A DNA stretch of 64,000 nucleotides from assembly GCA_008933995.1 (NCBI GenBank), contig WARS01000007.1, positions 3,040,230-3,104,229 of the forward strand, read 5' to 3'. The notes under the pieces were generated by a model that was given only the letters and a program-made list of their open reading frames with translations, had not been told where the DNA came from and did not search any database. Both the position numbers and the translations under genes were made by a program. Positions 14,901 through 59,923 of the stretch are shown one piece after another. This DNA is from Datnioides undecimradiatus (taxonomy: Eukaryota; Chordata; Actinopteri; Lobotiformes; Datnioididae). Within the stretch, counting starts at the first letter, position 1. The number at the start of each line of letters is the position of its first letter.

Positions 14901-17900
14901 AACTTTCAATGGCGAGCTCTGTTGCATCGTTCTGAGGTCTCTAAGAGAGGACACTCCAAAACAACCTGAACTAGGTGCAACGGTTCTCCATCGTGGCACA
15001 GCATTGCTGCCAAGTGTCCTCTTTTCTTTCCTACCCACCATTCTTGCTTGATTTGACTTCCTGTGACTTTTTCCTCTTTTCCAAAATGGAATTCAAGCTA
15101 AAGTGACAGATTGTTTGAGTGGAGGAGGTCCAGAGGACATCCAGCACACATGACACATTTCCACCAGGTACTGTTTTTGCTTGTTATAGGAACTGACTCA
15201 GAAACTTTAGCAGCATCTTGTACCTACTGTTAATACTAAAACCCAAAAACCTCCTTCCAAGTGACCATATTTTTGAAATAATGAAAAGGATGCTTCAGAT
15301 GCTCTTCACAATTTGATTAAATAATTGGGTCACTTGCTTTAAGCAAACAGGACAGCTGAGGCAAATAAGACAGTAAATAGTTTTGTGATGGACTGCCCAG
15401 GGTTACCTCAGTACACATCTGGAAGTTTGTGTGGGTATACAATCATAAAATTTATTTTAAAAAATTGGTAAATTTATAAATGTTAGGAATAACTACACAA
15501 TAAATCAGTAAAACATCTTAATCAATAAATGGTTTAGGGGGTATTTGGAGTTGTTTGCAGTTGAATTTAGGCTAATGTGAGGCATATGACTGAAACAGCT
15601 TTTTTATTAAAATGGAGGCAACTGCTGGGCTGACTCAGCCCAGTCTGAGAAGAGAGGCCCCCTCCAAAAAAGCTAAAACACACTGTAGATTGGTTTGTTT
15701 GCCGATGGGGTTAGAAAGGAAGCGAGAAGCAGGTTAAAGAGGAAGAAGAGAGGGAGGAAGGAGCTGAAGACAGATGTCCGGTTGCTAAGTAAAGAAGTGA
15801 ATTGGGGATTAATCTGTGTGCGTGTGTGAGTGCGCGCTTGTGTTTTAGAGTGAGCATGTGTATTCTGGGTGGGTGTCTGGGAAGCTGGATAGTGGGATGA
15901 TGTGGGGCTGATAGAGTGGTGTCTGTCTGGGGGCTCTTAGTGACACAGAAGGAGAATGCTTCCATGAGGGATAAATCAGGTCACTGAACACTGAAGCAGT
16001 TAGCTTCAACCCAGTTTCATGAGTGGATTCTCCATTCTCTTCCTCTATGTTTCTGCTGAACCTCACGTATATAAGCAATGACACTTCCTCTCTCCTACAA
16101 GCTGGCTGGGGGGATTGCGTGTACTTTGTGTTTATATATGGGGGCGATTGCAGTGGGGTCTGCGGGGCATGATCCCATGTTGGAGAATATGAAAGATGCT
16201 CCTGCACTGACAGTGAACCCTGAGGGACAGGCTACGGGGAGATCATCAATTCAAGACAAGGTCAACCAGAATATGCTGTTAATTACATGGTGTAAACGTT
16301 TATATGAACTTGTGGAGGAGAGAACGACAGAGTGTGTGAAATCCAGAGTGAAGTATTTATAACAGGAGCGTTTGCGCCCCCTTTGGTTCACTAACTGAAC
16401 TGCAACAACACTGCACGTTACTGGTTGTATTTTTAAATACTGGTTTCAGTGTGTGTGTCATTTCACCTGTCCATACTATGAGGTCCAGCAGTCATAGTTA
16501 TAGTTTCCCTGAGCAGTGTTTCTCTGTCAAGCTGCAGTCCAAGTGTAGTGTAGCTTTAACTGTAGAAGATATCTAAATATGTCTTAGTCAGGCTGCTGAA
16601 GCCTGCACTAAACCCTGATCATTTCAGGGTGTCTTCATTTAACATAGCTACCCTTAAAACAAACGACACACATCGACGTGTGATGGAACACTCACTGCTT
16701 CTTGGATTTGGCAGCGGAACACGTGGATCCTGAAGATCTCAGCGTTGTAGTGGCTCTCAGTGAAGGCAAAGCAGTCACTCTCTGGTGTGCCATCATGGCC
16801 TCGCACACAGAACAGAATCTTATAGATAGGGTAGTTGGCAATCTCCGTACTTGCATTGGGGTCCAGCAACCTGTTTGAATAGAGATTGAATGTGAATGAC
16901 AGTATGTGATTTGTTAAGTGTGTTTCACTGTAGAACCGGAACTAATAACTCGTATGTTCCTCGCACCTGACGGTTCCTTCGGACACGCCTGGCACAGACA
17001 GTGTGACATCCAGGGGGACTTGGCACTGCCCTCTGAGGATGCTCATCATACGGAGGGCCTCTACCTCACTGCGGGGGGCGTTGACCGAGGCACACCCCAG
17101 ATATGTCAGCTGGCTGAAGACGACGCTGTCCTCATCTGGAATGGGACTGACAGGGCTGCCATCTGATGACGATTCGTCTGCTACAATAGGGGTAATGGAT
17201 TGGGAGAAGAACAGAAAAGAAAAGGATCTGATTATTTTATGATTTCCATTACCGTCATACGGTTGTGCATCAATATTACTTTCCGATCTGAGATAAGCTG
17301 ACATGTTTTCTTCAAAGGAAAATGAGGTAAAGCAGGATGGGAGATAGTTGGTTGTGAGAGGAAAAACAGTTACTAAGTGAAATTCATTCAAAACAACAAA
17401 ATGGTAGGTGTTCTCTGTGTCAAAGGATATAAGTGGCACGACTTGCAGAACACTGTATGTTTTAGGGACCTGGGTGATTCTGTGATATTACTCTGAAAGT
17501 CTTAGAAACACTTCTGCAAAGCTGAAGATTAGAGCCATTGTGTGAGACAAGAAAAGAGGATAAGTAAAGTCATGGCTCACCTCGGTACGACCTCTCATTC
17601 AGCTCGCTCTCCTGAGGCGTCTGAACTGGGAGCACCATCTCCAACTTGGGTGGGGGTGCGCTCAGAGGGTCAGAGCCTGGCGCTACGGGTGACGCCGTAG
17701 TGGGAAGGAGGCCATGGTCGCCCCTAGCGAGGCTGTCCATTCCTGCTTCTGATCCGAGCCCAGTGTCAGCTACCGATGGGTCCATGAGGACATCTTCTAA
17801 CTCCCTCTGGAGCTGCTGCTCACTCCCATTCCCCACAATCTGGTGCACACAGACACACACACAGAAACAGACATGAACACAACCCAACAAGGAGCAGGGA

Positions 17901-41850: not shown

Positions 41851-44800
41851 CGCGCACACGTGTGTGTGTGCATAGCCACAAACCACAAACTTGTCGGAGG
41901 ACATCTTTTAAATCCTCTTGTAAATTAACATATGCATGGATAATAAAACCAATTTAAAACAAGTGCGTTTGAAACAAGCAGACCTTTAACTTACATAAGT
42001 CTGAATCTAACTCATTTATAAAATTAGAGATGCAAATTTCGATGGCGGGCCCTGTTTTCTATCCTGAGTACAGTGAAACTCTTTCAGCATGTATGTGCAC
42101 GCTCACTCACTTCTCCAGCTCATCCTGCGTGTGTGCAAATGTACAGTTGGTTCCTCGGGGACAGCCTCCCTGCTGACGAAGGTCTCTGCACATGCTGGTC
42201 TTGTACTTGCTGTTGGCCTGAGGCTGCGAAATGCACAATGTACAGTGAACATTCGTGGAATTAAACAAATACATGGAAGTCTTTAACAAACAAGCACAAA
42301 GCATCTCAGTGCTCTCCCCAGCACATTAGTCAGACATGATGTTTATTGTTAATATTGTTGAAACACTGAAGTAGATTAACGCACAAATGTTGGTTTTATA
42401 ATCATAAAACACAGGTGACACTGAACCATGATAGTGTGTAAAGTTCATGTCAAGATGATAGTTAATGTTTACTCTCCACAGTGACTAATTAACTGCATCC
42501 ACAGTTAATCCATCTTTTATTTGCAGACTTGTTTAGGAGATGTTGAAAGTGAAAAGTCTAAAATGTAATCAATGTCAAACTGTAATTACTCCCTTTGCTG
42601 TATACTGTGAATGGTAAACAAACGTAATGTTGAGATCTGCTGTCATTAACAAACTGCCTCCTTTGTCCCAGTGTGTTATTTAACAAGCACTGACAGTGAC
42701 ACACAGGACAGCTCCAGCCTGGATAGATCCACTATATTCAATGCACTGCGAGAGACTCTTTTCACAGCTGCATTATCTGTCAGTTACAGTTATTTAAATG
42801 CTGTTCTGTCAGTGAAACCAAATGTTGCTGTTAGCAGCCCGAGACCTTGTCATGTCATTTTAACTATCCTTGATGCAACAGCCAGGAGGAACGATCCTAG
42901 ATCCTGAACATCTTATCCTTCATGTCCATGGCCTTTTATGGTGCCTGAGTGGAGCAGCAGAACAGCTTCTCCCCCAGGATTGTCCTTCTTTAATATTCCG
43001 CACTTTTCCACTGTGCAATTATTGTGTCTATGATCTCTCTCATTTCTGCTCCATCTCATTTTGTGTTCCCGTCGTCTGTTTTAAATAATACCGCTGTCAC
43101 AAACTCATCGGCCTACCTGTGGAGTGTCGTGGCTCTTCTTGCTGAAGTTCTGTATGAATTCCACTAATCCGTGAACGACTAACTTCACAGCCAGCATCAC
43201 GCTTTCCAGCTCCTCCCATGATGGTGCCGGGGCATCTGCACACGGATCAGCAACACACTCTGCTTAGTTGAGATTTTTGTCACTGTACATAATCTGAAGA
43301 TTACAGGTATTTGATGATAAACCGAACAACTGAGAATTTCCAAATTCTACCAGAGGGGCTGCATGAAAAGGTTGTTAAATAGTTTCATGACACTAAAATG
43401 ACTAAATTTAACAATAAATATATGAGTGCCAATCGCATCAAACAGCCTGCATGTTGTGCTTTGATTATAAATGTTTCACACACAGAATGAATCAGTAGTT
43501 CTAATCTCTTTTGTGCTCGTTGATTGCATTTTGGTATGTGAGTGCCACAGCTTGTCCGTTTTCTTCACTTTTCAGTCTCATTAAGCGCTGCGGAACTGGA
43601 CGAGCCCTTCTTTCTGAGAAGTGTTGATCATCCCTGCTCATTAGCATTCATTCAGATGGATACTGTTAAACAAACAGGAAGTACCTGGGTTGTGGTCTAT
43701 GTTGGCTAGCAGCTCGAGGTGTGGTCTAAGGCTTGTGAGGTTGGCAGGGTCTCCGGTCCTCTGCAGAACGATTGTCAGCTCCTGAACACTCTTTGCAAAC
43801 GACTCTGGAGACTGCAACTGTTGCAGAAAACAGAAGACAAGAGTGAGTGTTTGAAGTTGAGATGAAATGAAAGAAGCATCACAGTCATGTCGCTCACCTA
43901 TTTAATGTGATGTATGTGCTAAAAAGTCAGTTTCTTTTAATGCTTGTATCACAATCTGGTCATGTTTGAAATATGACTTATTGCCACAAAAGCTTGGATC
44001 AAACAACAATATCATAACATCCACCTGTCAATCCTTCTTCAGTTTTAAGCAGCACAGAGCTAAGATTTACGAGTCAGCTAGCAACAGCCTGGTACGTCAG
44101 TGTGTCTATGGCTTTCCACCACCTCACACCCAGTTGAGCACACCTGAACCTTGGCCCCGCTCATTTTCCACAACTCATTTGTCCTGAAATGAAAACTCAT
44201 ATGAATCCTACTGCTACCTTGTCAATAATAGACTGCATATGTGACTTGTGGACCAGGTCTCCGTACAGCAGGGAGGACCACTGCTCGGGTGAGATCCGCA
44301 AACCGGCCTCCATGGCGATGTGTACGATCTGAGCGTCATGTTCTCTTCTCAGAGCCTCGTACGTCCGGAACTCCTCCTTCAGCTGCATCAGTGAGGAATC
44401 CTCATCACGCTTAGTCACCTGATGAGAGATGAAGGAGGGAGATATAGAGGGAGAATAAGAAAGAGGATGAGTTGAGAGACAGGAGAGTACAAAGAGAGAC
44501 GAGGAAGAGGATGTGGGCAGATTATTATCGTTTATGAAACATCTGAATGAACACAAGTACTGAACAATAGAAAAGAATAATCAGTCAGTCTTTAAATATA
44601 TCTTGTAATATCTATAATGTATTTGTAATTTGCCCAGTCTCAACAGTTTACGTGACACAGGGCTGAGTAGTCGATTACAAAATTAAATATTCATTCTGAC
44701 TTTTGGTATGGGAGGTCCCAAGTCAGGTGATTTTTGAATAATGCAACCAAATTTAACGACTGGTGAGTGTGTCAGCACGTGGTGTCCTCAGACCAGTAAA

Positions 44801-47712
44801 CTCAAATTCAGATCAGACAAGGGGATTCCCCCCTCCTCAGAATCTGCCCTATGAGTAATCATCACAAGACACCGGCACAACCCGCCCGCTATCACTTACA
44901 CATCTGCCAAGCTCAGTGGTCAAAATTACAGCTGAGCAGGGTGGGATTTCACTCAAACTCTAGCTGCGGTCTGTCCTCTGTCAGGCTTTCCCTCTGTCCC
45001 CGCACATTCAGCTATCTTTCTCTGCATCTCTGTGCTGTCCCTCTCTGTGCAGCTAGGCGGGGCAACAAGGGCAAATATAGACTGCTGTTACATCACGAGC
45101 AGATAGCTGGCATTTCTGCCCTACCAGCGATGTCCGTCATCAGATAACAGGCACAAAAATACATGCACATAGTGTGTGTATAGCCACAGAGGCCAATATC
45201 CTTATTACAGACCTGACTTTTATGCAATATAATATTATTAGTGGTGTAAGCAAACCATTTAGGGAATGACTGGCTTTAAAGACAGACTGGGTCATGTTAA
45301 GTTGGAGAAAACAGCTGATGAGGTTCTTTTCCAAAGCTCCCCCAGATGCTTTGACTAATGTGAAAGAGAATCAGTGTTTTAGTTGATCTTAGTTTGATGG
45401 AGGTTCTTGTGTGGAAAAATATTATAATTAAACTAAAAAACAAAATAGCAGTTTATAACTGATGGCGTAAAAGGGAGCAGTATCTCTGCGGTGAAGGGAT
45501 ATGTGGTGGTAAATGAGTGTCTATTTAAATACCCATCATTTAATCAGGTCATTTATTATGGCTTGGGTTCTTGGGACAGCAGCAAACTGAGGTGCTTTTG
45601 TTCAGTTTGACATAGACTACATTCAAAGAGCTGTGGATAGCTTCGTTTTTGAATGAACCACTTGATAGAGAAGCCCGCTCACATGTTCTTGACTGCGCAT
45701 GTATTTATGGGCTCGATGTGTATCTTTAACATTGGGTGTACGCTCATCCATGCTGCCGTACCTTGAAGCAGGAGGCCCTGTAGAGGAGCTGCACCACGTG
45801 GCCTATGCTGGTTTTGGAGGCCTGGGGGAACCGAGCCTCAAGCTTTTGGACTACAAACAAAACCAGCACCTTTCTGGACAGAGCTGAGCCGTCCTCCAGG
45901 GCCAGTAAAACAAGCTTCAGTGCATCCTCTTGCATAGCTGGTTACAGGTTACAGTGGCATGTAACAGTACAGAGAAGAAAAAGGAGTAAGACAGAGTGAG
46001 AGAAATACAGAGATATTGGAGAGAGTCAGAAAGACATATTCAGCCATATAAATAAAGAGAAGAGTATGCATTTGCATGTAAACACTGCAAATAATACATG
46101 CAACATTATACTCAGAAATACTAAACAACAGACAAATCTATTTGCAATTCTTTGAGGCTCTAAGAACCAGGTGTCCTCAGACTTTTTAATGAACTCATTC
46201 TGTGATCACGCTGAGAAACAGTTTCCCAGTCAGAATCTGCCCTATGAGTAATCATCACAGGACACCGGGTACCATCACCAGCATCGCTTTGATGAGGCAA
46301 TCAGGAGCACACATCCAACAGTCTTACAGCATCAGGTAAGCTCCTTTTAAAATTCATACCGCCTCAAAGAGTTCACAAAGTATTCACCACCTTTAAAAGT
46401 TAAATGTTTGTTGGTGACACTTACAAGAAAAGATGCAAAACTAATCCAAAGTGTCAAAATGTTTAAGTGTCACTTTCATCTACAAGACAATGACGGGTCT
46501 GAACACCCACCTGGTCCCAGAAACTGGCAACCCCGTGCCCTCACCGCCGCCCAGAGGTTGGCAGAGAGCTGCTGGGGGTTCTGGTGCTGCAGGATGAGCT
46601 CAGTGACGGTTCGCTCCCCAAGCGAGCGGCCTGCTCGCACTGCCCTCACGCGACCCTCCTCCTCCACCAGCTGGCAGTTCACTAAGGTCACCAGCTTCCT
46701 CTGCATCGGCCGACTGAGCACGCTCGGGCTCAGAGTCGCCACACCTGCAAAAGGTAACAGCTCAGTGGTGGAACAGTGTATCTGTGCATCTTCAACACAT
46801 CAAGAGCATTTACTTTAGTTATCAGTCATGTTTTAGTGTCATTCAGCTTGTTATAATGAGCAGTGTAGGTGGATTTAAAGGCCTCATCTCTAACAAGCTT
46901 CAATGCTTGTTAGAGCACCAGACTTGAGGATGTGTAAATGTTCCAAATGATCTAATTTGCCACAGAGAACAAATGCTACCACAGCACTCTCTCCCAGAAC
47001 TGGCTGAACAAAAAAAGGAAGCTATTGGTCGATTTCAGAGCCCTTCATCTTTCTTGCCCGGTTACGCAGAGAACTGAATTTTCCCTCAGTACAATAAAAG
47101 TACAGCAGCTTTCAGGCGTCATTAGAAGTGTGACAAGCAGGACTGCCAAGTTGCACAGAGCACAGGCAGCTCGAAAGCAGCCCCCGCACATTTAGGACCA
47201 AGAGCTTGATTCTCTTTAGCAAATGTACACAGACAAAATTTACCACCAAAAACACTTGTATGGTCGTTCGTACACTAACCTTTTGCTCCGCTGATCGGTT
47301 TTAGGTAGAGAGCCAGCTCTTCCACGCACACCCTGCAGACCTCGTAGTTCTCAACATCTGCTGCACTGTTCAGGCTCACGGGCTGCACATCTGGCACCTA
47401 AGAGACACACACCATGAGCACACACAAACACACGAAGACACAGAAACACGGAACAAGGAGGCTTGTTTCTTCCCGACTCACCTGAGCTCCAACCAGCTGC
47501 AGCAGGGCACAGTTAACCGGCAGCAGGTCGATGTCGGTGCTGATGGGCGTCTGATCAAAGGGGCAGGCCTTGCGGTGCAGTTTGTGTAGGCAGGTCTTAC
47601 ACACCGTGTGGGAGCAGCCCAGGCTGATGGGCTGGTGGCCGCTGCTGTCAAACTCATTGTAGCAGATGGGACAGGACAGGAACTCTGTCCACTGGGCTGC
47701 CTGCACTGGCAT
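35259..47712 (-). CDS. rc3h2: rc3h2, Roquin-2 RING-type E3 ligase and RNA-binding protein (19 coding exons)
   Basis: Roquin-2 binds stem-loop decay elements in mRNA 3' UTRs, recruits CCR4-NOT deadenylase and represses immune and developmental transcripts. Coding exons: 47482-47712, 47280-47397, 46511-46744, 45762-45937, 44218-44418, 43685-43817, 43117-43235, 42111-42223, 41415-41735, 40883-41082, 40466-40776, 40238-40384, 38503-38640, 37453-37617, 37098-37341, 36562-36646, 35841-36048, 35540-35703 and 35259-35406. All phases agree; the sum is 3456 nt, 1151 residues (human about 1190). Seen: RING finger at 14-54 ([24 protein letters not shown]), ROQ/HEPN region about 90-400, CCCH finger near 410-438 with spacing C-X8-C-X5-C-X3-H, then Pro/Ser-rich sequence, conserved [18 protein letters not shown] and a C-terminal acidic patch. 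The start [20 protein letters not shown] matches RC3H2 rather than RC3H1. Confidence 0.97.
35540..35703 (-). CDS. rc3h2: rc3h2 coding exon 18
   Basis: It encodes [20 protein letters not shown] and ends KKMAF before GTGAAT. Little identity to human; placed by phase, splice sites and position. Confidence 0.8.
35841..36048 (-). CDS. rc3h2: rc3h2 coding exon 17
   Basis: It encodes [20 protein letters not shown] and [20 protein letters not shown]. The DRDIELEL motif is shared with human RC3H2. Phase 2 in, phase 0 out. Confidence 0.92.
36562..36646 (-). CDS. rc3h2: rc3h2 coding exon 16
   Basis: It encodes [20 protein letters not shown] and SHSSFLE, matching the human DSRWSSYGNEATSSAHYVER region. 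Phase 1 in, phase 2 out. Confidence 0.9.
37098..37341 (-). CDS. rc3h2: rc3h2 coding exon 15 (conserved [14 protein letters not shown] block)
   Basis: After a Gly/Ser run it encodes [20 protein letters not shown] and [20 protein letters not shown], almost identical to human and the best conserved piece of the C-terminal half. Phase 0 in, phase 1 out. Confidence 0.96.
37453..37617 (-). CDS. rc3h2: rc3h2 coding exon 14
   Basis: It encodes [20 protein letters not shown] and the family signature [12 protein letters not shown]. It ends CSDHS before GTGAGA, phase 0. Confidence 0.92.
38503..38640 (-). CDS. rc3h2: rc3h2 coding exon 13
   Basis: It encodes [20 protein letters not shown], a six-histidine run, and [15 protein letters not shown]. 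It aligns with human RRKPDQWAQYH and PLFSVDF. Phase 0 both ends. Confidence 0.93.
40238..40384 (-). CDS. rc3h2: rc3h2 coding exon 12 (3' end uncertain)
   Basis: It encodes [20 protein letters not shown] and [20 protein letters not shown], conserved with human. Two in-frame donors are possible: AGG before GTAGGTGG (end 40238, preferred because the extra residues look unlike the family) or CAG before GTAACA (end 40160, adding 26 residues). Confidence 0.85.
40466..40776 (-). CDS. rc3h2: rc3h2 coding exon 11 (proline-rich)
   Basis: It encodes [29 protein letters not shown] and [15 protein letters not shown], all recognisable in human RC3H2. The acceptor is a CAGCAG tandem, so the exon may start at 40776 or 40779. 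Confidence 0.93.
40883..41082 (-). CDS. rc3h2: rc3h2 coding exon 10
   Basis: It encodes [20 protein letters not shown], then [20 protein letters not shown] and a Tyr-rich end. It corresponds to the human PPKTPVS region. Phase 2 in, phase 1 out. Confidence 0.92.
41415..41735 (-). CDS. rc3h2: rc3h2 coding exon 9
   Basis: It encodes [20 protein letters not shown] followed by Gly/Ser/Thr/Asn-rich sequence including a [10 protein letters not shown] repeat. Only the first residues match human closely. Phase 2 in and out. Confidence 0.92.
42111..42223 (-). CDS. rc3h2: rc3h2 coding exon 8 (CCCH zinc finger)
   Basis: It encodes [20 protein letters not shown] then [18 protein letters not shown]. The three Cys and one His of the CCCH finger are intact. 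The exon ends two bases into a Lys codon before GTGAGTGA. Confidence 0.97.
43117..43235 (-). CDS. rc3h2: rc3h2 coding exon 7
   Basis: It encodes [20 protein letters not shown] and [19 protein letters not shown], the last helix before the CCCH finger. Phase 1 in, phase 0 out. Confidence 0.95.
43685..43817 (-). CDS. rc3h2: rc3h2 coding exon 6
   Basis: It encodes [20 protein letters not shown] and [20 protein letters not shown], conserved with human. Phase 0 in, phase 1 out. Confidence 0.95.
44218..44418 (-). CDS. rc3h2: rc3h2 coding exon 5 (ROQ core)
   Basis: It encodes [20 protein letters not shown] through to [17 protein letters not shown]. The segment [20 protein letters not shown] is invariant with human. 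Phase 0 both ends. Confidence 0.97.
44781..44873 (-). ncRNA. snord90: Box C/D snoRNA, second SNORD90-type copy, in rc3h2 intron 4
   Basis: The RNA reads GGTGTC, box C (GTGATGA), the same guide, box D' (CTGA), a diverged middle, box D (CTGA), then GGACACC. The terminal stem is six pairs plus a wobble. The 39-base block 44837-44875 (from just outside the 5' stem to just past D') differs from the intron 3 copy at one base, while the part between D' and D is unrelated. So the 18S guide is kept but any second guide is not. The stem, boxes and guide all look functional. Confidence 0.9.
45762..45937 (-). CDS. rc3h2: rc3h2 coding exon 4 (ROQ core)
   Basis: It encodes [20 protein letters not shown] through to [17 protein letters not shown], part of the RNA-binding ROQ core. 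It sits between the two intronic snoRNAs. Confidence 0.97.
46170..46266 (-). ncRNA. snord90: Box C/D snoRNA, SNORD90 type, in rc3h2 intron 3
   Basis: The RNA reads GGTGTCC, box C (GTGATGA), guide ACTCATAGGGCAGATT, box D' (CTGA), a C'-like GTGATCA, box D (CTGA), then GGACACC. The ends form a perfect 7-bp stem. Ten bases before D' (ATAGGGCAGA) complement UCUGCCCUAU of 18S rRNA. By the D+5 rule this directs methylation of the second U of UCUGCC, which fits human Um354, the SNORD90 target. Human SNORD90 also lies in an RC3H2 intron. The 97-nt length is usual for the class, and its 3' end is 232 bases before exon 4. Confidence 0.92.
46511..46744 (-). CDS. rc3h2: rc3h2 coding exon 3 (ROQ region)
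   Basis: It encodes [20 protein letters not shown] and [20 protein letters not shown], ending CQFLGP. Nearly identical to human RC3H2. Phase 1 in and out. Confidence 0.97.
46745..47279 (-). other. rc3h2 intron 2
   Basis: 535 bases; no snoRNA boxes with a closing stem and no repeat recognised. Confidence 0.65.
47280..47397 (-). CDS. rc3h2: rc3h2 coding exon 2
   Basis: It encodes [20 protein letters not shown] and [16 protein letters not shown], the HEPN part before the ROQ core. Phase 0 in, phase 1 out. Confidence 0.95.
47482..47712 (-). CDS. rc3h2: rc3h2 coding exon 1 (RING finger)
   Basis: Residues 1-77 from [20 protein letters not shown] to LLQLVGAQ, followed by GTGAGTC. The cysteine and histidine ligands of the RING are all present. 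A CTCACAG acceptor places the exon's 5' edge at 47810, so about 98 bases of 5' UTR are included. Confidence 0.97.
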
Positions 47713-58828: not shown

Positions 58829-59923
58829 TTAGTCCACAACCTCCCCGTGTTCATTTTGCAGGCTACTCTTACCATTAACGTCCTTCAGGTGGCGCCTGAA
58901 ACCTGGCTTATAGGCAAAGTGTACAGCACAGCGGTTACACTTATGGGGTTTGTCCCCTGTGTACAAATTGAGGTGGTCTTGCAGCGTGGCCTTCTGGGAA
59001 AATGTCTTGTGGCAGAGCGGGCATCGAAAAGGCTTGACGCCAGTGTGGACATGTATGTGTCGGGTCAGGTTGCTCCTCTGAGAAAAGCCTTTCCCACAGA
59101 CCAAACAAAAGTGCTGCCTGTGCTCCTTCAGATGCCGCACATAGCCCTCCAGGTGCTGGAAGACTCTATCACACCTCCGACACAGGTACGGCCTCTGGAC
59201 CAATAAGCTGTCTGAATCCTCTATTGGAACCTCACCAGAGCAGTGGCTCTTTGGCAGATGTGCTTCAGACAGACTGGAGTCTATCAGCTTGCCACATTTT
59301 TGCAGTTGAGCTGCCAGTAAAAACATTTTCTCCTCTTCTCTGTGCTTTTCCCCTCCTCCATTCTCTGGGTTGTGCAAACTGTCCACTTGTGCATCAGACT
59401 GATCAGAGCCCCCTCTGGATGGGCAGCATGTATGATCAGGTACAGGAGGGCACAGTTTACATCTTAGGGCACTCGTAGTTTGGTGATCTTTATATAACGC
59501 CTGGTTTGTGTGAACAGGCTGGGTTTCTCCACCTTCTTCCAACTTTGGACAACATGCTACACCTTCAGATAACTCTACATTGTTTATAACCACCTTCTTA
59601 TCATCTCTGGCCTCATTCAGTCCTTGACTATCTGCCTCAGCTCCTTGGCTGACCGTTGACTTGGACTGAATCACAACTGGACCCCGTTCCTCAGTATTTG
59701 CTTCCTGGATGCTCATGCTGGGATGGGCTGCATCCCTTTCCCACTGATTTATGAAGCTGTTTGGCTGCTGCATTTCCTTCACCTCTGACTGTGTCTCCAG
59801 GTTCATGAATGCTGGCGTGGGACTGAGGTACTGGGAGATGGCCTGGGCACACTTCTCCACCACCTGGCTCATCTGGAGTGCACTGGCTGCAGTCAGGTAG
59901 CTCACCAGCTCCCTCAGAGGGAC
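58829..59923 (-). CDS. zbtb26: zbtb26-like coding exon 2 (end of BTB, linker, four fingers)
   Basis: Begins VPLRELVSYLTAAS after CCATAG, continuing the BTB domain exactly. Then an acidic, poorly conserved linker and fingers beginning YLCRRC, HFCLVC, FRCPLC and HKCNRC. Ends HGEVVD then TAA at 58829-58831. A possible AATAAA lies at 58676-58681. Confidence 0.92.
   Translation of the reverse strand, partial: VPLRELVSYLTAASALQMSQVVEKCAQAISQYLSPTPAFMNLETQSEVKEMQQPNSFINQWERDAAHPSMSIQEANTEERGPVVIQSKSTVSQGAEADSQGLNEARDDKKVVINNVELSEGVACCPKLEEGGETQPVHTNQALYKDHQTTSALRCKLCPPVPDHTCCPSRGGSDQSDAQVDSLHNPENGGGEKHREEEKMFLLAAQLQKCGKLIDSSLSEAHLPKSHCSGEVPIEDSDSLLVQRPYLCRRCDRVFQHLEGYVRHLKEHRQHFCLVCGKGFSQRSNLTRHIHVHTGVKPFRCPLCHKTFSQKATLQDHLNLYTGDKPHKCNRCAVHFAYKPGFRRHLKDVNGKSSLQNEHGEVVD

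Follow-up and report, generated by a model that had tools for sequence, protein, structure and literature searches.

Two SNORD90-like box C/D snoRNA genes in adjacent rc3h2 introns of Datnioides undecimradiatus

The stretch of 64,000 nucleotides analysed here (the window) raises the question of whether two short sequences in adjacent introns of rc3h2 are both genes for the box C/D snoRNA SNORD90 (formerly HBII-295) and, if they are, how the pair arose and what it guides. Judged from sequence, the two (copies A and B) are very probably SNORD90 genes that arose by intragenic (cis) duplication and would guide methylation of the equivalent of U354 in 18S rRNA. The duplication itself is ordinary and runs along a described vertebrate pattern; it is the question of Um354 that deserves experiment. 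The host gene occupies the minus strand, where coding exons 3 (46511..46744, upstream of copy B), 4 (45762..45937, between the two snoRNA introns) and 5 (44218..44418, downstream of copy A) were delimited by splice sites placed by eye and by a match to Roquin-2, which also backs the frame of exon 4. Joined, these exons encode 204 residues that score 409.5 bits against Roquin-2 versus 392.5 against Roquin-1, and Pfam finds a ROQ domain in them; the higher Roquin-2 score bears out an earlier note on this DNA, which had named the host as rc3h2. Both snoRNAs are on the minus strand, sense to rc3h2, and the human SNORD90 host is given as RC3H2 (PMC8210301), so that host and orientation are those of a SNORD90 gene.

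Coding exon 4 separates the two, copy A (44781..44873, minus strand, 93 nt) lying in the intron that follows it and copy B (46170..46266, minus strand, 97 nt) in the one that precedes it; both are recognised by their boxes, their stem and their alignment to the consensus. Each is a complete box C/D snoRNA gene whose elements follow one order on the minus strand: box C GTGATGA (44859..44865 in A, 46252..46258 in B), the spacer TTACTC, the guide ATAGGGCAGA (44843..44852 and 46236..46245), TT, box D' CTGA (44837..44840 and 46230..46233), a variable middle, and box D CTGA (44788..44791 and 46177..46180). Boxes C and D were located by a box scan, D' by a pattern scan and the guide by its pairing with 18S. 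The ends, GGTGTC(T/C)...GGACACC in both copies, form a terminal stem of 7-8 pairs, and the elements that define a box C/D snoRNA (RUGAUGA, CUGA and a closing terminal stem) are found in both. A comparison of pairing places a hairpin between D' and C' (44819..44835 in A, 46212..46228 in B; minus strand). In copy B, GTGATCA (46203..46209, minus strand) is probably the C' box, a name given by position and likeness; its counterpart in copy A is TGATC (44811-44815, minus strand), at an equal offset from D'. The coordinates, lengths, boxes, closed stem and common guide given in the earlier note all agree with the sequence.

Chance is a poor source of such layouts. A scan of the window for box C, D', D and a stem of at least 5 pairs finds two places, which are copies A and B (the place of copy A is also matched with one alternative D box), and 100 mononucleotide shuffles give a mean of 0.04 matches per window. 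The pattern of box C, guide and D' occurs twice in the window and in none of 100 dinucleotide shuffles. In the whole 581-Mb assembly, exact matches to this pattern number two, again copies A and B, a count that would miss diverged copies; a search of viral contigs gives none. When full-length copy A is searched as DNA against the assembly, the only matches are A and bases 1-37 of B. Folding is more stable than in shuffled sequences, with a z of -4.71 for copy A (0/200 shuffles as low) and -2.57 for copy B (5/200).

The guide is the main sign of the family. The longest run equal to the Rfam SNORD90 consensus (RF00579), in its printed form with variable positions included, is 20 bases in copy A and 18 in copy B, and it covers the guide and D' box, the sequence by which a SNORD90 gene was to be recognised here. 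The GUGUC/GACAC terminal stem is common to the consensus and the fish copies, and in the consensus, too, a hairpin stands between D' and C'. Taken with the host gene, the guide and D' run makes descent from SNORD90 the simplest account, and the SNORD90 identity proposed earlier holds on these 20 and 18 consecutive bases. The covariance check that the earlier note had named came out otherwise. At curated cut-offs Rfam has no matches in the whole window, and under loose settings the SNORD90 model gives copy B 21.7 bits and copy A 17.7 against a gathering score of 41, so that neither copy has a SNORD90-level score, which taken literally is the outcome that the earlier note had named as refuting. 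The model probably fits fish poorly; SNORD90 is accepted despite the sub-cut-off scores because the guide is the part that matters. Searching the genome with the model yields nothing at E<=0.001, which says little, since 48 of 127,835 first-look candidates were scored and 0/14 control genomes were positive. With fish sequences falling below the cut-off, model-based annotation may miss the gene in fish.

The two copies are nearly identical in their first part. From the first base to D', 36 of 37 positions are equal, and two common bases just upstream give the 38 of 39 reported before; the guide and D' box are the same in both, which confirms the predicted conservation of the guide half. The sole difference up to D', at position 7, where A has T and B has C, leaves its stem pair intact as U-G or C-G. 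The final 13 bases are also equal. The earlier statement that the copies then diverge fully does not stand, as the 3' halves retain part of their sequence and the hairpin. Compared without gaps from D' on, 19 of 42 positions are equal (52 of 20,000 shuffles reach this value), and the C'-proximal part, beginning with the C' box, has 14 equal positions out of 21 (54 of 20,000 shuffles reach this in their best anchored 21-base window), both counts using a fixed offset from D' chosen after a MAFFT alignment had been seen. On these D'-anchored matches, total divergence of the 3' halves is rejected. End-to-end alignment of the halves gives a weak signal (67/5000 shuffles) and unanchored local alignment none (838/5000 shuffles; 688/5000 random window segments). 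The hairpin is maintained through paired changes, 4 of its 7 pairs being altered on both sides and still paired; with two sequences only to compare, 32 of 500 shuffles pair as well by these measures.

The near-identity up to D' may have a cause other than selection: a recent partial gene conversion could have overwritten one 5' half, the change at D' then being the conversion boundary. In its favour, the spacer TTACTC between box C and guide is equal in A and B and differs from the SNORD90 consensus, so that the identity of the copies exceeds what the guide alone needs. The equal last 13 bases and the 14/21 match of the C' part nevertheless fall outside such a tract, and part of the spacer, ACTCA, is pairable with a TGAGT common to both copies, a possible structural reason for its retention, although the length of the resulting helix next to box C (5 pairs in A, 6 in B) is within chance (1411/5000 and 502/5000 shuffles). 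Conversion is on these grounds possible but doubtful, and selection is presumably what keeps the D'-side half.

Intragenic duplication, the preferred reading, agrees with what has been described elsewhere. Almost all chicken snoRNA paralogues are reported to stem from intragenic duplication, the novel ones lying mostly in adjacent introns, and many vary widely while retaining guide and structure (PMC2653536); placental mammals show a trend to fewer C/D snoRNA gene copies (PMC3349704). The fish pair fits all three of these patterns. Human SNORD58, SNORD50 and SNORD12 and the chicken cis-paralogues likewise sit as copies in separate introns of one host and, like the fish pair, keep guide and structure with the rest variable (PMC2653536, PMC8178906), but their guides and hosts differ from those of the fish pair. 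For chicken, one isoform of HBII-295 is listed, in RC3H2 intron 5 (PMC2653536), against two copies in the rc3h2 of this window. Copy A lies in coding intron 4, which corresponds to gene intron 5 only if a single non-coding exon comes first; copy A may occupy the ancestral intron, B then being the addition. Human has one SNORD90 copy against the two in this rc3h2. If the genome is that of a ray-finned fish, it follows that the RC3H2-SNORD90 host-guest pair is older than the fish-tetrapod split. The open-access papers searched for SNORD90 and HBII-295 describe no such pair in a fish. The flanks of A and B show an upstream similarity that 27 of 1,000 shuffles reach, at unequal distances from the copies, and a downstream similarity that 782 of 1,000 reach. 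Retroposition was considered and rejected, no A-rich tail being visible by eye beside either copy.

In the proposed mechanism, both snoRNAs would be released from spliced rc3h2 introns, with the usual box C/D proteins holding them at the terminal stem and C/D kink-turn, and the D' guide would direct fibrillarin to 2'-O-methylate 18S at the U354 equivalent. Selection would keep the D'-side half constant, and the other half would have drifted with its hairpin and C' box retained. Expression, processing and methylation are in each case predicted. One copy might instead be functional and the other intact but silent. Surplus snoRNA copies are often unexpressed, and the distance to the next acceptor (the 3' splice site) is 231 nt for copy B and 361 nt for copy A, compared with an optimum of about 70 nt for C/D processing. 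A copy silent for long would not, however, be expected to retain an intact 5' half, boxes and hairpin, and both copies have an unbroken 5' half, every box and a hairpin that pairs despite strong drift elsewhere, which makes silence of one copy unlikely.

The target predicted from the D' guide is present in this genome. Its 18S holds GTCTGCCCTAT, which forms 11 pairs, one of them G-U, with the bases beside D'; the 18S copy used (contig C18) lacks its 5' end, and expression may come from another copy. Loose target scoring discriminates poorly even for the true D' guide (1/60 and 4/60 shuffles reach it in two runs), and the strict in-register test was relied on for that reason: 94 of 20,000 shuffled guides reach an in-register match of 10 contiguous pairs. 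The rRNA complementarity beside D' expected of a C/D guide is thus found, in the +5 register and with the genome's own 18S. The base at D'+5 in the fish 18S is U, and the same rule applied to the human 18S leads to U354. The pairs and the register together uphold the guide to the U354 equivalent that had been predicted. In two published accounts the site is assigned to SNORD90 (as U354 in PMC8210301, as Um354 in PMC9941101).

What this target means is less plain. Table 1 of PMC8210301 credits mouse with methylation of U354 and enters it as absent for zebrafish and yeast, and PMC8797249 counts Um354 with the human sites that X. laevis lacks. SNORD90 has moreover been called an orphan and reported to lower NRG3 (PMC10335830). 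These entries favour a reading in which A and B are SNORD90 by descent but no longer methylate 18S, either because the guide has another use, such as mRNA binding, or because methylation was lost. This reading is unlikely: A and B have the same guide and D' box, their runs of 20 and 18 bases agree with the consensus, the 11 pairs are in register with the genome's own 18S, and Um354 is near zero or high according to human cell type, with a reported level of 0.02 in HEK293T and 0.59 in differentiated SH-SY5Y (PMC9941101), so that surveys can miss it. Two intact guides where zebrafish and X. laevis are listed without Um354 point to tissues outside the surveys or to another use of the guide. It may be, and is put forward tentatively, that SNORD90 is an old vertebrate guide, kept or duplicated in some lineages despite no listed Um354, and that the real reason for its conservation is either a tissue-limited methylation of U354 in fish (a regulated marking that preceded mammals) or a second, non-ribosomal target. 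As it stands, the fish pair supports 18S U354 as a conserved target of an RNA termed an orphan in 2023. Given that Um354 depends on cell type and reaches high levels in human neurons, two intact fish guides offer a direct test of whether regulated Um354 predates mammals.

The D side gives no comparable signal. Among 18S, 5.8S, U2 and U6, no D-side target stands clearly above shuffled controls, and the search for rRNA and snRNA targets suggested in the earlier note therefore gave nothing convincing. The best 18S match of the copy A D side spans 15 positions with 5 G-U and 1 mismatch and is reached by 11/60 shuffles; those of copy B and of the SNORD90 consensus are reached by 59/60 and 42/60. 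The D' side also matches U2 over 9 positions with 2 G-U (2/60 shuffles reach it), and two conserved 28S strings have no match in the assembly. The proposal that the D-box guide is free to specialise fares badly, since the 3' half retains sequence and a covarying hairpin and has no convincing D-side target among these four RNAs. In the SNORD90 consensus (RF00579), box C is followed by nine bases that are fully complementary to the nine preceding box D (6/5000 shuffles), which would leave scant space for a D-side guide; the fish copies have at this site a helix of 5-6 pairs, set back from box D and within chance. The 3' half is more likely a scaffold than a second guide. The 9-pair helix of the consensus also overlaps the 5' end of the 18S guide, and is perhaps linked to the variable activity of SNORD90.

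The best Rfam match of both copies is to another family, snoZ118 (RF00142), a plant C/D family; it scores 46.7 bits for B and 29.2 for A against a cut-off of 48. Whole-length pairwise scores for copy A separate the two families (SNORD90 72.0, snoZ118 62.5), and for copy B (78.5 and 79.0) they mark a C/D snoRNA but probably not which family; 0 of 1,000 shuffles reach any of the four. That A and B are a snoZ118-like snoRNA with a chance match to SNORD90 is, despite the top Rfam scores and the equal pairwise score of B, barely credible, because the likeness is one of general C/D layout: the longest run equal to snoZ118 is 10 bases in A and 11 in B, near box C, against 20 and 18 for SNORD90 across the guide, snoZ118 has a guide of its own that differs from that of the fish copies, and the host gene agrees with SNORD90.

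Some further features of the window and assembly may be recorded. The intron of copy A also holds a C/D-like element of 66 nt (45085-45150, minus strand) with TGATGA, TAGGGCAGA (9/10 guide bases) and the 6-base complementary ends CTGTTA/TAACAG; it is without a D' box and has GTGA instead of box D. Its alignments to A and B are reached by 645 and 679 of 18,080 other stretches, and its only Rfam match has 8.8 bits (E 9.5). As a third copy it was not upheld, having no D' box and no significant alignment, and it is possibly a decayed one. The 18S copy on C18 (545-3013, minus strand) lacks a discernible 5' end. After it come a 5.8S gene and, some 200 bases later, TTAGGG-like repeats near the contig end; it is probably a truncated rDNA copy. 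Elsewhere in the window, an open reading frame at 58829-59923 (minus strand) encodes C2H2 zinc fingers according to Pfam, and a peptide at 16942-17487, which matches none of the Pfam families, resembles RABGAP1. With these two features the gene order is reminiscent of the human arrangement, RC3H2-ZBTB6/26-RABGAP1.
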